Of a stretch of DNA of 64,000 nt, positions 11,109-60,593 are shown in pieces; the first letter of the stretch is position 1, and each line of letters starts with the position of its first letter. Position numbers and translations under genes: made by a program. Source of the stretch: Haloprofundus halophilus (lineage in GTDB: Archaea; Halobacteriota; Halobacteria; Halobacteriales; Haloferacaceae); assembly GCF_003439925.1 (NCBI RefSeq), contig NZ_QQRR01000001.1, forward strand, positions 1,488,001-1,552,000, given 5' to 3'. Below the pieces are notes generated by a model that was not told the origin of the DNA, searched no databases, and was given only the letters and a program-made list of their open reading frames with translations.

Positions 11109-13754
11109 ATGCAAACGCAAGACAACTACGACCACGCGAAGATCGAGCAACGGTGGCAGGAGGCGTGGGCCGAGGCGGGCGTGTTCCACACCGCCGACGA
11201 CGCCGAGGACCCGACGTACGTCCTGGGGATGTACCCCTACCCCTCGGGGAAACTCCACATGGGCCACGTTCGGAACTACACCATCACCGACGCCTACGCC
11301 CGGTACCGGCGCATGCGCGGCGACGACGTGCTCCACCCGATGGGGTGGGATGCGTTCGGATTGCCGGCCGAGAACGCCGCCAAGGAACGGGACACGAACC
11401 CCCGCGACTGGACGCTCGACTGCATCGCGACGATGCGCGGACAGATGGAGTCGATGGGGTTCGGCTACGACTGGCAGCGGGAGGTCACCACCTGCGAACC
11501 CGAGTACTATCGGTGGAACCAGTGGCTGTTCGGCCGGTTCCACGAGGCGGGGCTCGTCGAGCGGCGCGACGCCGAGGTGAACTGGTGCCCCTCCTGCGAG
11601 ACGGTGCTCGCCGACGAGCAGGTCGAGGGTGAGGCCGAACTCTGCTGGCGCTGCGGCACGCCCGTCGAGCAGCGCGAACTGGCCCAGTGGTTCCTGAAGA
11701 TCACCGAGTACGCCGACGAACTGCTCGACGACATCGACGAACTCGACGGCTGGCCCGCCTCCGTCCGTCAGATGCAGCGCAACTGGATCGGCCGCCAGCA
11801 CGGCACCCGCCTCACGTTCGAGGTCGGAGGCCACGGCCCCGTCGAGGCGTTCACCACCCGCGCGGACACCGTCTTCGGCGCGACGTTCTTCGCGCTGGCA
11901 CCCGACCACCCCATCTCGCAGGAACTGGTCGCCGAGGACGCCGCCGTCCGCCGGTTCGTCGAGGAGGAGGCCGACCCCGAGGGCGACGAACCGAACGGCG
12001 TCGAGACCGGCCTCACCGCGACGAACCCCGTGACGGGCGAGGAGCTCCCCGTCTTCGTCGCCGACTTCGTGCTGTCGGACGTCGGCACCGGCGCGCTGAT
12101 GGGCGTCCCCGGCCACGACGACCGCGACCACGCGTTCGCCGAGAAGATGGGCGTCGAGATCCGTCCCGTCGTCGCCCCCGAATCCGAGGCGGGAGAGCCG
12201 ACCGCGCCGGACGTGAGCGAGTCGGCCTACACCGAGGACGGCGTGCTCGTCGACTCCGGCGAGTACAGCGGCCTCGACAGCGAGACCGCCCGCGAGCGCA
12301 TCACCGAGGACGCCGACGCCGCCGAGTTCACCACGCAGTACCGGCTGCGCGACTGGGGAATCTCCCGCCAGCGCTACTGGGGAACGCCGATTCCGGTCGT
12401 CCACTGCGACGACTGCGGGCCGGTGCTGGTGCCCGAGGAGGAGCTACCCGTCGAACTGCCCGAGTTCGTCAACACCACCGGCAACCCGCTGGACGCCGCC
12501 GAGGAGTGGAAGCGGACGACCTGTCCGGACTGCGGCGGCGACGCCGTCCGCGAGACGGACACGATGGACACGTTCGTCGACTCCTCGTGGTACTTCCTGC
12601 GGTACGTCTCGCCGGGGCTCGACGACGCGCCGTTCGACGTCGAGCGGGCCAACGACTGGATGCCGGTCGACCAGTACGTCGGCGGCATCGAGCACGCCGT
12701 GATGCACCTGCTGTACAGCCGGTTCGTCACGAAGGTGCTCGCCGACACCGAGGGCCTCGAACACCGCGAGCCGTTCTCGAACCTGCTGGCGCAGGGGATG
12801 GTCCAGCTGGAGGGCGAGAAGATGTCGAAGTCGAAGGGGAACGTCGTCTCGCCGCAGCGCATCGTCGAGGAGTACGGCGCGGACACGGCCCGCCTGTTCA
12901 TGATGCAGGCCGCCCAGCCGGAGCGGGACTTCGACTGGAGCGAGGAGGGCGTCGAGTCGAGCCACCGCTACCTGCAGCGACTCGCGCGGGCGGTGCGGAC
13001 GTTCGTCGAGACCGAGTACGACGGCGCGGAGGACGAGACGGCCGCCTACGTCGACCGGGAGATAGACGCCACCGTCGCGACGGCCCGCGAGGAGTTCGAG
13101 ACGCTGACGTTCAACACGGCGCTCCGCGAGGCGCGCGAGTTGACCTCGTTGCTCACGCAGTACCGCGAGACGGACGCACCGCACGGTCCGACCGTCGAGC
13201 GCGGTCTGCGGACGGTCGTCAAACTGCTCGCACCCGTCGCCCCCCACGTCTCCGAGGAACTGTGGGAGTCGCTCGGCGGTGAGGGGTTCGTCGTCGAGGC
13301 CGACTGGCCGGAGTTCGACGGCGACGCCGACGAGTTGGCGCTGGCGCGTCGACTGGTCGAGAACACGCGGTCGGACGTCCGCCACATCGTCGATGTCGCC
13401 GGCATCGACGACCCCGAGCGCGTCGATGTCGTCGTGGCGGCCCCGTGGAAGTTCCGCGCGCAGGAACTCGCCCGCGAGTCCGACGCCCCGAACGTGATAA
13501 GCGAACTGATGCAGGTCGACGAGATTCGCTCGCAGGGCGACGCCGCGGCGTCGTTCGGGCAGGACCTCCAGGAGGAGCGCCAGTCGCTCTCGGAGACGCT
13601 CTCCGCGGCGCAGGAACGGGCCGAACTGGAACGAGCCGCGTGGCTCGTCGAACGGGAGTTCGACGCGGAAGTACGGGTCCTCGGCGCGGACGAGGCCGAC
13701 GACGACATCGCGCGGAAAGCCAGTCCCGGTCGACCCGCGATCCACATCGACTGA
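11109..13754 (+). CDS. leuS: leucyl-tRNA synthetase (bacterial-type LeuRS)
   Basis: 881 aa class Ia synthetase that charges tRNA-Leu. The HIGH motif is HMGH near residue 49 and KMSKS near 571 (EKMSKSKGN). A Cys-rich zinc module (CPSC...CWRC) lies near 160-185. The CP1 editing domain spans about 220-400, with the T-rich TTRADTVFGAT segment near 245; a second CDDC...CPDC pair is near 440-480. This organisation is bacterial-like rather than archaeal/eukaryal, which is known for haloarchaeal LeuRS (family knowledge). A CCTATAG box lies about 45 nt upstream of the ATG, so a short leader is likely. Confidence 0.97.
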   Translation: MQTQDNYDHAKIEQRWQEAWAEAGVFHTADDAEDPTYVLGMYPYPSGKLHMGHVRNYTITDAYARYRRMRGDDVLHPMGWDAFGLPAENAAKERDTNPRDWTLDCIATMRGQMESMGFGYDWQREVTTCEPEYYRWNQWLFGRFHEAGLVERRDAEVNWCPSCETVLADEQVEGEAELCWRCGTPVEQRELAQWFLKITEYADELLDDIDELDGWPASVRQMQRNWIGRQHGTRLTFEVGGHGPVEAFTTRADTVFGATFFALAPDHPISQELVAEDAAVRRFVEEEADPEGDEPNGVETGLTATNPVTGEELPVFVADFVLSDVGTGALMGVPGHDDRDHAFAEKMGVEIRPVVAPESEAGEPTAPDVSESAYTEDGVLVDSGEYSGLDSETARERITEDADAAEFTTQYRLRDWGISRQRYWGTPIPVVHCDDCGPVLVPEEELPVELPEFVNTTGNPLDAAEEWKRTTCPDCGGDAVRETDTMDTFVDSSWYFLRYVSPGLDDAPFDVERANDWMPVDQYVGGIEHAVMHLLYSRFVTKVLADTEGLEHREPFSNLLAQGMVQLEGEKMSKSKGNVVSPQRIVEEYGADTARLFMMQAAQPERDFDWSEEGVESSHRYLQRLARAVRTFVETEYDGAEDETAAYVDREIDATVATAREEFETLTFNTALREARELTSLLTQYRETDAPHGPTVERGLRTVVKLLAPVAPHVSEELWESLGGEGFVVEADWPEFDGDADELALARRLVENTRSDVRHIVDVAGIDDPERVDVVVAAPWKFRAQELARESDAPNVISELMQVDEIRSQGDAAASFGQDLQEERQSLSETLSAAQERAELERAAWLVEREFDAEVRVLGADEADDDIARKASPGRPAIHID

Positions 13755-13759
13755 GCGAC

Positions 13760-13778
13760 GCTCCGCGGGAGCTTTTTT
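13760..13778 (+). terminator. intrinsic-type terminator after leuS
   Basis: GCTCC-gcg-GGAGC followed at once by six T forms a short hairpin plus T-run directly downstream of leuS. The T-run overlaps the stop codon of the convergent gene at 13777. Confidence 0.6.
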
Positions 13779-14247
13779 AAACGGTCTCGGTGTCGAACGC
13801 GGCGTCGACCGCGGACGGGTGGAGGTCGAGCGCGTACGGGATGGCGTACGCGGTCGCGACCGCGAGGCCGTTTGCGATAACGGGGGCGAACGCTTCTGCG
13901 GCGGTGCTGCTGCCGACGGGTGTGTTCGAGACGAGCCCGAGCGCGACGACCTGGAAGCCGAACCCGCAGCCGACGAGTAAGACGAGCGATTCGACGCGAC
14001 GCGCGTGCGCTCTCCGGTCGTGCGTTCGGGAAGGCGTCCGGCGGCGGACCCAGGCGACGCCGCCGACGAACGCCGCGAGCACGGCGAGTACGAACGACGC
14101 GGTGGGGTCCGGTCGAGCGGCGACGCCGAGCGTTCGGAGTCCGGTCGAGAGGCCGATAATCAGGAGCGTGAACAGAAACGCGGTAGTCGTCGCCCACTGG
14201 AGGCCTCCGACGAGTGCGGTTCGGAGCGACGGGCGGTACGAAGTCAC
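13777..14247 (-). CDS. small membrane protein, unknown function
   Basis: 156 aa with four hydrophobic segments: about residues 13-33, 45-62, 82-103 and 115-138. A basic loop RRRTPSRTHDRRAHARRVE lies between the second and third. No family is recognised. The GTG at 14247 is supported by an ATATAAG box 27 nt upstream, giving a leaderless transcript. It is convergent with leuS, with the leuS terminator overlapping its stop. Confidence 0.7.
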   Translation of the reverse strand: MTSYRPSLRTALVGGLQWATTTAFLFTLLIIGLSTGLRTLGVAARPDPTASFVLAVLAAFVGGVAWVRRRTPSRTHDRRAHARRVESLVLLVGCGFGFQVVALGLVSNTPVGSSTAAEAFAPVIANGLAVATAYAIPYALDLHPSAVDAAFDTETV

Positions 14248-24378: not shown

Positions 24379-24711
24379 ATGAGCGATACGGACTCGGAGA
24401 CGGACGCAAGGGAGACGGCCGACGCCGACGACATCCTCGACGACCTCTTCGAACTCGTCGAACAGCGCAAAGAGGAACTGCCCGAAGACTCCTACACAAC
24501 GTCGCTTTTCACCCACGAGAAGGGCGAGAACGCCGTGCTCGAAAAACTCGGGGAGGAGTCCACCGAGATAATTCTCGCGGCGAAAGACGACGATACCGAC
24601 GAGTTGGCTCACGAGAGCGCCGACTTCGTCTACCACCTGCTGGTCCTCCTCTCGATGAAGGGGATGACGCTCGACGACCTGCGAGAAGAGCTCGCCGCGC
24701 GGTTCGGCTGA
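24379..24711 (+). CDS. hisE: phosphoribosyl-ATP diphosphatase
   Basis: 110 aa. Second step of histidine synthesis (PR-ATP to PR-AMP). It is an all-alpha MazG-like fold with the conserved GEESTEIILAAK near residue 60 and HESADFVYHLLVLL near 79, which carry the metal-binding Glu and Asp residues. An acidic N-terminal extension (MSDTDSETDARETADADD) is typical of halophiles. Start ATG 24379. A stand-alone HisE, not fused to HisI. Confidence 0.95.
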   Translation: MSDTDSETDARETADADDILDDLFELVEQRKEELPEDSYTTSLFTHEKGENAVLEKLGEESTEIILAAKDDDTDELAHESADFVYHLLVLLSMKGMTLDDLREELAARFG

Positions 24712-52961: not shown

Positions 52962-53035
52962 GTCCGGGTTGGGGTAGTGGACCATCCTTCAGCCTTGTGG
53001 AGGCTGAGACGCGGGTTCGATTCTCGCACCTGGAC
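52962..53035 (+). tRNA. tRNA-His (anticodon GTG)
   Basis: 74-nt cloverleaf. The extra G at -1 is encoded (52962) and pairs with C73, the identity mark of tRNA-His. Acceptor TCCGGGT pairs with ACCTGGA; anticodon stem CAGCC/GGCTG holds the loop TTGTGGA with anticodon GTG; T-arm is GCGGG-TTCGATT-CTCGC. CCA is not encoded. Its 3' tail is repeated three more times downstream. Confidence 0.95.
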
Positions 53036-53040
53036 CTTTC

Positions 53041-53160
53041 TGTCTCCGAGTAAAACGAGGAGACGAAGGTCCGTCGTAAGAGATCGAGCCACGAGAGTCG
53101 CAGCGCGAACGGAGTGAGCGACCGTCTCTCGGAGGTTCGATTCTCGCACCTGGACCTTTC
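53041..53160 (+). repeat. tRNA-His tail element A (120 nt)
   Basis: Composition: a small hairpin GTCTCC/GGAGAC, a degenerate antisense copy of the tRNA-His tail (GAAGGTCC...ATCGAGCC), a spacer GCGCGAACGGAGTGAGCGAC, and an exact 27-nt copy of the tRNA tail ending TGGACCTTTC (53134-53160). The antisense and sense copies form a long hairpin around the spacer. Confidence 0.85.
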
Positions 53161-53316
53161 TTGACGCGAACTACGCCACGAGCGACTGCACTCAGAGAGC
53201 GCGTCGTGAGTGCTCCGTGGGCGTCGAAGGTCATCGAAGAGAATCGAACCCTGCAAGGCGCGCGCAACGAAGTGAGCACGTCTTGCTCCGGTTCGATTCT
53301 CGCACCTGGACCTTTC
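53161..53316 (+). repeat. tRNA-His tail element B (156 nt)
   Basis: Same design as A with a longer first hairpin (GACGC/GCGTC ends). The antisense GAATCGAACC (53241-53250) pairs perfectly with GGTTCGATTC (53290-53299) inside the exact 27-nt tail copy at 53290-53316. The spacer contains GTGAGCACGTCTTGCTC. Confidence 0.85.
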
Positions 53317-53436
53317 TGTCTCCGAGTAAAACGAGGAGACGAAGGTCCGTTGTAAGAGAGCGAACCACGAGAGTCGCAGCGCGAACGGGGTGAGCGACCG
53401 TCTCTCGGAGGTTCGATTCTCGCACCTGGACCTTTC
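53317..53436 (+). repeat. tRNA-His tail element A' (120 nt)
   Basis: Near-identical to element A (4 differences in 120 nt), again ending with the exact 27-nt tail (53410-53436). Element copies repeat with a 276-nt period (A+B). Confidence 0.85.
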
Positions 53437-53500
53437 TGACGCGAACTACGCCACGAGCGACTGCGCTCGGAGAGCGCGTCGTGAGTGCTCCGTGAGCGTG
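53437..53500 (+). repeat. truncated tRNA-His tail element B'
   Basis: Matches the first 60 or so bases of element B with three substitutions, then diverges. It lacks the antisense and sense tail copies. This ends the array, 20 nt before the small gene at 53520. Confidence 0.75.
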
Positions 53501-53519
53501 TGCTCGCGTCGGCGAGAAC

Positions 53520-53711
53520 TCAGTACCCGCCCGCGTCGTCGAAGCAGCGTCCGCACCGGGACGCACCGCCGTCGTCGACGGCGTCGGCCAAGTCGACGAC
53601 TGACGTGGCCTTCTCGGAGACGTGGAACAGCGCCCCGCAAGCGGTGAGTCGGTGAGCGTGGTCGGTGGGCTTGTGAACGGTCTCGGTCTGCTCGTTGAGG
53701 ACTCCCCGCAT
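53520..53711 (-). CDS. small Cys-containing protein, unknown function
   Basis: 63 aa: MRGVLNEQTETVHKPTDHAH, then a C-terminal SRCGRCFDDAGGY with a CxxC pair and a further Cys in TACGALFH. The His-rich start and Cys pair suggest a small zinc-binding protein, like other haloarchaeal small zinc-finger proteins. Function unknown. A CGTTTTACTG box about 30 nt upstream supports the ATG at 53711. Its 3' end abuts the tRNA-His repeat array. Confidence 0.65.
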   Translation of the reverse strand: MRGVLNEQTETVHKPTDHAHRLTACGALFHVSEKATSVVDLADAVDDGGASRCGRCFDDAGGY

Positions 53712-59898: not shown

Positions 59899-59971
59899 GG
59901 GACCATGGGTTAGCCTGGTATACTTCGGGCCTTGGGTGCCCGTGACCCCGGTTCGAATCCGGGTGGTCCCA
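59899..59971 (+). tRNA. tRNA-Pro (anticodon TGG)
   Basis: 73-nt cloverleaf with acceptor GGGACCA pairing with TGGTCCC and discriminator A73. Anticodon stem CGGGC/GCCCG holds the loop CTTGGGT with anticodon TGG; T-arm is CCCGG-TTCGAAT-CCGGG. CCA is not encoded. A copy of its 3' tail lies 165 nt downstream. Confidence 0.95.
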
Positions 59972-60138
59972 CTTCTGACGCGAGTCACACACCGAGCGCC
60001 GCCGAGCGTCAGCGAGGCGTGTGCGAGGGACTCCGACTCGCGTCGAATGGGGCACCGGATTCGAACCCTGCGAGTCGCGCACAGCGAACACAGTGAGCGA
60101 GCACGTCTCGCTCTGGTTCGAATCCGGGTGGTCCCACT
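59972..60138 (+). repeat. tRNA-Pro tail element
   Basis: First hairpin: GACGCGAGTC (59977-59986) pairs perfectly with GACTCGCGTC (60035-60044). Then an antisense tail copy GGGGCACCGGATTCGAACC (to 60067) and a spacer with GTGAGCGAGCACGTCTCGCTC lead to an exact 24-nt copy of the tRNA-Pro tail (60115-60138). GGATTCGAACC and GGTTCGAATCC are perfect 11-bp inverted repeats. Same layout as the tRNA-His elements. Confidence 0.85.
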
Positions 60139-60290
60139 CCACCTTTTTACTTCGTCGGGTGCGCCTCCGGCGCACCACTCCTCGCAAAAATCTGTCTTCG
60201 CGAACGGAGTAAGCGAAGGCTCGTCAGAGCAAAGCTCTGACGGTGGACCAAAAAGGCCGCGACTCGCTTCACTCGTCGCGGTACGACGTG
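60139..60290. repeat. cluster of three perfect short hairpins
   Basis: GGTGCGCC-tcc-GGCGCACC (60158-60176), CGTCAGAGC-aaa-GCTCTGACG (60222-60242) and CCGCGAC-...-GTCGCGG (60257-60281). GGACCAAAAA at 60245-60254 follows the second, as in the dispersed module at 47.7 kb. The remainder of the gap to mcm (60291-60593) shows no gene; it holds the mcm promoter. Confidence 0.7.
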
Positions 60291-60593
60291 TTGAATCGTC
60301 GACGCGAATCCGTCGCTCCGCTCCGCCCCGGAATTGCGAGCGCTGCGCGAGGCAATCGACTGTCTCGGGTGAGCGGGCGTCCCAAGAGCCGCCGAAGGGA
60401 AATGGCCAACGACCGAATTCGGGCGTCTACGCCGCGCAGTCGGTAGCGCCCGTCGTTCGTCCCAGTCACGTGACCCGGGAGGCGACGGTGTCGTAGTTTT
60501 ACGTACCCTATCGAATTCGGCCGTCGGTCGGGCGAGCATCACTTCCACCCCGAGGCGATACTTCTTACACGGAGAGGAACTAAGCGTGTGTCA

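Follow-up and report, generated by a model that had tools for sequence, protein, structure and literature searches.

A class-wide family of palindromic, tRNA-tail-bounded units in haloarchaea, possibly cassettes inserted at the tRNA T-loop

Directly downstream of the tRNA-His gene of Haloprofundus halophilus, the 3' end of the gene recurs three times, and each recurrence is preceded by an antisense version of itself. Archaeal mobile DNA docks most often at the 3' ends of tRNA genes (PMC8371274), and this locus raises the question of what, if anything, has docked here. We analyzed the array within a stretch of 64,000 nt (positions 1,488,001 to 1,552,000 of contig NZ_QQRR01000001.1; hereafter the window), at the other tRNA loci of the genome and in other genomes, each species being represented by one genome.

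Two tail-repeat arrays in the window

The tRNA-His gene (GTG) occupies positions 52963..53035 of the plus strand (3' end at 53035/6; ARAGORN and Rfam RF00005), and its nt 53-73 form the repeated tail, T. Three units follow, each made of a hairpin (Y), an antisense tail (T'), a palindromic core (C) and a copy of T, with T' on the minus strand and the other parts on the plus strand. Unit A, delimited by sequence and fold, comprises Y at 53036..53064, a degenerate T' at 53065..53090, C at 53091..53133 (tip GCGAACGGAGTGAGC, placed from sequence and tip statistics) and T at 53134..53155. In unit B, Y spans 53156..53225, T' 53226..53251 (recognized as a repeat pair), C 53252..53289 and T 53290..53311; its core is of the CTGCAAG..GTCTTGCTCC type, common to the tRNA-Pro unit described below (match C1:1548058-1548124). 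Unit C repeats the Y of unit A (53312..53340) and carries a core at 53367..53409, both in repeat family D1, with T' at 53341..53366 and T at 53410..53431. Beyond it, the remnant Y of a further, decayed unit (53432..53500, repeat family D2) repeats that of unit B. Each copy of T matches the tRNA at 22/22 positions, and a 211-nt block at 53014-53224 is duplicated at 53290-53499 with 95-97% identity.

A sequence-only reading of this stretch had described exact tail copies, each with a degenerate antisense tail ahead of it and folding as a hairpin. Our analysis agrees: the last 22 nt plus CTTTC start again at 53134, 53290 and 53410, an antisense tail lies ahead of each copy, and folding is better than in shuffled sequences for unit A (z -2.5) and strongly so for the entire array region (z -6.5). 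The perfect inner match that had been noted in unit B is likewise real, at a corrected length of 12 bp (53239-53250/53290-53301) instead of 10 bp. No tyrosine integrase (PF00589) was matched within the window, as that reading had also held. ORFs that span the arrays (52989-53279 and 53231-53566 on the minus strand, 59936-60496 on the plus strand) encode repeated peptides such as VRIRVVP and WDHPDSNRG, which are only translated tRNA tails and warrant no gene annotation.

The second array of the window lies behind tRNA-Pro (TGG; 59899..59971, plus strand; ARAGORN and Rfam RF00005). It has the same architecture as the tRNA-His array and a related core, but the tail is that of tRNA-Pro: from the sequence, Y is placed at 59972..60047, T' at 60048..60067 (minus strand), C at 60068..60114 and a 22/22 copy of T at 60115..60136. 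Behind this unit, positions 60137-60220 hold a terminator-like block, CTCCACCTTTTTAC..CGTCGGGTGCGC..GCGCACCACTCCTCGCAAAAATCTGTCTTCGCGAACGGAGTAAGCGAAGG, similar forms of which stand behind the tRNA at C2:864091 in the same genome and behind tRNAs of the related genome G032 (L097, L109); it is possibly a third class of tRNA-linked repeat. A further tRNA-Glu called by ARAGORN at 24457-24550 (minus strand) is not among the tRNAs that Rfam finds in this genome, and its sequence looks protein-coding; the call is most likely a false positive.

Anatomy and range of the units

To place the two arrays in a wider setting, we examined all 47 tRNA loci of the source genome, counting as an own-tail copy a match to the last 21 nt at 18/21 or better within 600 nt downstream. 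Such copies lie behind 19 of the 47 tRNA genes, and behind 22/42 and 19/42 in two sister species (G032 and G028), which were selected for being unit-rich. When the tails of other tRNAs served as controls, these three complete tRNA sets gave 0, 0 and 0.15; own-tail copies upstream were found at 1/47 genes in the one tRNA set tested. Locus sets picked by the strict pattern defined below favour units, and the three complete sets and the core scan are the less biased samples.

The strict pattern, an antisense T-loop followed after 20-50 nt by a T-loop, is present in 188 of 194 Halobacteria genomes, and the reversed control pattern matched in none. This is the opposite of the absence from close relatives that the earlier reading had set as its refuting test. 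A relaxed pattern recovered copies in three of the six remaining genomes, some with the usual cores. Outside Halobacteria, a sample of the phylum gave scattered strict matches in about 11 of 124 genomes, almost always one per genome and at a rate close to that of the reversed control, and the core motifs were absent from these matches, among those listed. Some relatives (L056, L057, L060, L066, L073 and L075) have no hairpin units and carry HNH- or zinc-finger-like genes directly 3' of tRNA-His, as if another class of element used the same site.

We also scanned 84,980 species with the TCAGGGA core, which gave at least 120 matching stretches. Among the matches listed, 80/80 are haloarchaeal and come from many genera; 76 of the 78 that could be assessed have a same-strand tRNA within 1 kb on their 5' side, at a median distance of 101 nt, and 13 isotypes are represented. 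In these 78, again among the matches listed, T equals the tail of the adjoining tRNA at 21/21 positions in 52 and at 20/21 or better in 61. With one unit of the source genome as query, the other places found at E<0.01 lie solely beside tRNAs, and this search found no off-tRNA parent copy in that genome. Plasmid and phage collections gave no match to the unit, and cassettes in free or circular form were not encountered. A short-pattern search of IMG/VR returned 16 contigs, all but one of them without unit structure; the exception, a strict-pattern match at 13744-13908 of provirus contig L081, is a tRNA-Glu followed by a unit at the contig's end. L081 carries tailed-virus structural genes, so that viral and unit docking sites adjoin. 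A viral origin was rejected, the collections yielding just this one structured match in a provirus adjoining tRNA-Glu.

Collected as tail-to-tail segments of 45-200 nt, a range too short for ordinary genes, the units number 147 unique sequences and are non-coding, with a length of about 70-180 nt. The parts run from the tRNA with its T through Y, T' and C to T, with up to five repeats. T corresponds to tRNA nt 52/53-73 and lacks CCA. Across 78 copies, identity to the tRNA rises from 0.27 at nt 51 to 0.90 at nt 52 and 0.95-1.0 at nt 53-73, and falls to 0.60 at nt 74; in a set of 126 units, 86 copies of T are identical at 21/21. T' retains the complement of the T-loop at eight or more of ten positions in 110/126 units and is degenerate elsewhere. 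Nevertheless, T' follows its host, with the acceptor part scoring 8.40 against the unit's own tRNA and 7.29 (sd 0.16) against other tRNAs. The base of T' opposite nt 57 tracks the tRNA in 56 T:A and 22 C:G pairs, with four crossed and one other (56+22 of 83; Fisher p=1e-15).

By the letters that flank the T-loop, the cores fall into a few recurring types, such as TCAGGGA..GACCGTG and CCTGG..CTCCG. In 32 different 13-nt core hairpins, 146 of 160 pair cells are Watson-Crick, compared with 104 in shuffled sets (maximum 118), and most stem positions include paired changes. An Rfam search returned only the tRNAs themselves as significant, with no family for the units. Taken together, at the level of sequence these data establish the anatomy of the unit, its exact ends, a T' that tracks the host tail, paired changes in the core stem and a location confined to tRNAs.

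Strand bias and turnover

The units are asymmetric. In cores, the tip motif GAnnGNAnnGA is present on the tRNA-sense strand in 76 cases and on the opposite strand in none, and the sense strand is predicted to fold better in 103 of 127 units (p=1e-12). The pair that closes the tip is C-G in 77/112 cases, giving a cGNAg triloop, and cUUCGg is rare. Triloops of this kind are exceptionally stable as DNA. Among the 13-nt cores, G.T pairs number nine and A.C pairs none; across all inner stems the figures are 28 and 22, with no clear bias. An attC-like palindrome with a one-strand bias is also present (hairpin z -3.6); the likeness is one of fold, and the boxes are not alike.

A second class of unit, which repeats only about nt 61-73 of the tRNA, carries antisense-strand tips: the seven pure class-2 units (680700, 1655358, 1375675, 6835, 1325407, L179 and L203) have no tips on the sense strand. 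As for the GTAG/GGAG tetranucleotide that marks the hairpin foot in REP/RAYT elements, inspection by eye showed GTAG..CTCC in several class-2 units and not in others, and it is not general in class 1. Between L179 (G032) and L203 (G028), which lie just behind a tRNA, both arms of the class-2 stem have been replaced in a coordinated manner, and the hundreds of bases beyond match. The bias of the fold to one strand hints that a recombinase would act on one DNA strand in its folded state.

The sister species G032 and G028 reveal rapid turnover. Of their orthologous tails, 40/42 are identical, and copy number is unlike at 20 of 27 arrays. Two tRNA-Glu loci provide pairs of filled and empty sites: 102 bp stand directly after nt 73 in L195 and none in L170, and 105 bp in L176 and none in L113, with the other flanks matching in both pairs. 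The new units of L195 and L176 are precise, and their Y is unlike the local flank. At new sites, the shared block is often just the 10-11 bp of the T-loop. Within existing arrays, C is replaced and Y kept between L168 and L115, Y is replaced and C kept between L182 and L206, and L101 contains near-identical pairs of repeated units. By comparison, whole units are gained or lost precisely, and the modules Y and C are swapped.

Relative to L214, L111 has one extra unit behind tRNA-Leu(TAA), and the T ahead of this unit agrees with the tail of tRNA-Leu(TAG) at 20/21 positions and with the host's own tail at 17/21. This foreign-like T stands at a site distal to the tRNA, where a wrong tail does no harm, and the host tail sits beyond it. 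A crossover in the 10-bp T-loop GTTCGAATCC predicts this order of tails. In L112, the copies resemble the tRNA tail of the sister species although the adjoining tRNA has itself changed; such fossil tails indicate that tails are not simply homogenised. A CRISPR-like polarity was not significant: the first tail copy exceeded the last by 14 to 6 in a biased set, but the complete sets gave 9 and 5 (p=0.42), and the idea of polar insertion was dropped.

Origin and significance of the units

The account that we favour, at slightly under an even chance, is that the tRNA-His array holds three copies of a cassette from a class-wide, non-autonomous family that inserts site-specifically at the tRNA T-loop. 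The cassette would run from the T-loop and acceptor part of a tail through Y and T' to C, and would enter by site-specific recombination, crossing over near nt 53/54 within the T-loop. The tail of the incoming cassette would complete the tRNA and the old tail would be displaced to the far end, each insertion adding one direct repeat of nt 53-73. At the tRNA itself only cassettes with a compatible tail would survive, since a wrong tail would break the tRNA, and this may explain why T and the host tail are nearly always the same. T' would let one strand fold back on T to form a duplex copy of the tRNA tail, and this folded single strand could be what the recombinase recognizes, in the manner of integron attC sites; Y and C are exchangeable separately. 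Insertion by T-loop crossover would account for the exact ends, the own-tail rule, the single distal foreign tail and the precise gain of units. The genome comparisons demonstrate mobility and precision; we infer a dedicated recombinase, a single-stranded substrate, the crossover point and a lack of host benefit. The proposal of the sequence-only reading that a tRNA-derived repeat spreads by tail recombination fits the tail-bounded, precise units, the sharing of cores by many tRNAs and the filled and empty sites of the sister species.

Several observations sit less easily with T-loop insertion. There is one clear foreign tail only, and its match of 10/11 in the acceptor part must be read against shuffles that reach 10-11 in about 0.25% of draws. 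The change at tRNA-Arg between L112 and L212 extends one base upstream of the T-loop and is no clean tail replacement. The tail repeat of the 54-kb tRNA-Arg element described below, limited to nt 61-73, also counts against this account. Gene content does not single out an enzyme: tyrosine integrases (PF00589) and Y1 transposases occur alike in unit-rich genomes and in those lacking strict matches, with PF01797 (Y1/RAYT) in 13/13 genomes including the latter, and these counts therefore discriminate nothing. Two other sources of tail copies were considered and rejected: tRNA-primed reverse transcription, as the copies stop at N73 without CCA, and random template switching as the sole cause, as the unit ends are uniform.

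The main rival to T-loop insertion needs no dedicated enzyme. Once a few arrays existed in polyploid haloarchaea, ordinary homologous recombination between old repeats, by unequal exchange and ectopic gene conversion, could multiply and shuffle units. The tandem duplication in the window, the paired units of L101, the separate swapping of Y and C and the joint replacement of both hairpin arms between L179 and L203, in flanks that otherwise match, are all in its favour, and strong palindromes promote exchange. Such recombination surely contributes to shuffling. As the whole explanation we consider it rather unlikely: the shared blocks at new sites are often no more than the T-loop, the units end alike at nt 52/53 and 73 whatever the isotype, neither the 76:0 split of tips nor the excess of G.T over A.C in the 13-nt cores is expected of passive repeats, and the precise new units of L195 and L176 bring a Y that does not resemble the local flank.

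A second alternative, raised by the sequence-only reading, is a functional RNA, in which alternative hairpins of the trailer, T' pairing with its own or a decoy tail, would tune tRNA 3' maturation or decay. In its favour, units of the main class have their structure on the tRNA-sense strand, the 13-nt cores have G.T without A.C, and the copies finish at N73, the expected point of 3' processing. About half of the tRNAs and many orthologues, however, have no units, arrays turn over rapidly, class-2 tips are on the antisense strand, the tips are mostly cGNAg rather than cUUCGg loops, and Rfam has no corresponding family. One folded DNA strand would account for both classes more easily than a tRNA-trailer RNA, although this falls short of proof, and we regard a role in tRNA processing as improbable.

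The units might instead be deletion remnants of conventional integrative elements, proviruses or plasmids, that duplicated the tRNA tail. Tail repeats are a hallmark of tRNA-inserted integrative elements (PMC3119063, PMC8371274), unrelated and possibly mobile DNA lies behind tRNA-His of relatives, and the tRNA-Arg of a relative does bear such an element (G032:C1:1166485-1221300; L166, L104), about 54 kb long and with an integrase. An older hairpin unit has been pushed to the far end by this element, whose own repeat of the tail, however, covers only nt 61-73, suggesting that known integrases here may cut elsewhere, and whose left end has no hairpin. Remnants behind 13 isotypes, moreover, would not have the same palindromic cores, T' arms and tips in common, and the plasmid and phage collections gave no similar DNA; we consider this origin very improbable. 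A purely local scar of duplication at tRNA-His, to which the tandem duplication within the array might have pointed, is effectively ruled out by recurrence throughout the genome and the class.

Returning to insertion at the T-loop, the closest parallel is the integron. Integron attC sites are imperfect palindromes of about 60-140 nt that are used as one folded strand, vary in sequence and conserve their fold; they have a direct-repeat boundary at G-TT and form modular arrays with fast turnover. The haloarchaeal units share the imperfect palindromes, the one-strand fold bias, the direct-repeat boundary and the modular, fast-turnover arrays. Unlike integrons, their array head is a tRNA gene and they carry no gene cargo; unlike the RYYYAAC/GTTRRRY boxes of attC, their arms copy the host tRNA tail. 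IntI (TIGR02249) was found above the curated cut-off in none of 30 genomes. By analogy, our best reading is that the family may work like attC cassettes without being such. The further claim, of a class-wide integron-like system in which a recombinase captures and swaps cargo-free, one-strand hairpin cassettes with the tRNA as array head and can replace tRNA 3' ends, we put forward as a tentative and somewhat doubtful extension.

Other known systems share some of these features. Archaeal integrative elements and proviruses in tRNA genes, with integrases of the SNJ2, pR1SE and HSTV2 families (PMC8371274), likewise sit at the tRNA 3' part with a direct tail repeat (nt 52/53-73 in 78 copies of our units); unlike the units, they are kilobases long, encode an integrase and lack antisense tails and hairpins, and their repeats have other lengths, such as 13 bp in SNJ2 (PMC8371274) or nt 61-73 in the G032 element. 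REP/RAYT palindromes and the IS200/IS605-related PATEs (PMC3119063) are, like our units, short, non-coding and palindromic with stable single-strand hairpins, but have no tie to tRNAs and no host-matched arms; no target duplication is reported for the PATEs of haloarchaea (PMC3119063). MITEs and the SMR of Haloquadratum (PMC3119063) are also transposase-free repeats of the same archaeal class, but MITEs insert at scattered targets and end in inverted repeats taken from a parent transposon, whereas the arms of the tRNA units follow the host tRNA. As in CRISPR arrays, a constant direct repeat by a fixed leader alternates with inserts; here, however, the inserts are recurring, shared palindromic modules instead of unique spacers, the repeat is a tRNA tail and polarity is not significant.

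In the open-access literature searched, we found no description of such units, the closest being PMC3119063 and PMC8371274. Novelty rests on the anatomy, namely host-matched inverted arms, exact repeats of nt 52/53-73 and modular exchange, and the enzyme is only inferred. A small element on a large share of the tRNA genes of nearly every haloarchaeon seems to be undescribed in the literature searched. The fossil tails in its arrays are a record of old tRNA sequences, and the one-strand fold makes it possible to test for recombination on folded single-stranded DNA in a second system besides integrons. If entry at the T-loop is true, each proximal insertion would rewrite the tail of a living tRNA gene, and the invader itself would complete an essential gene.
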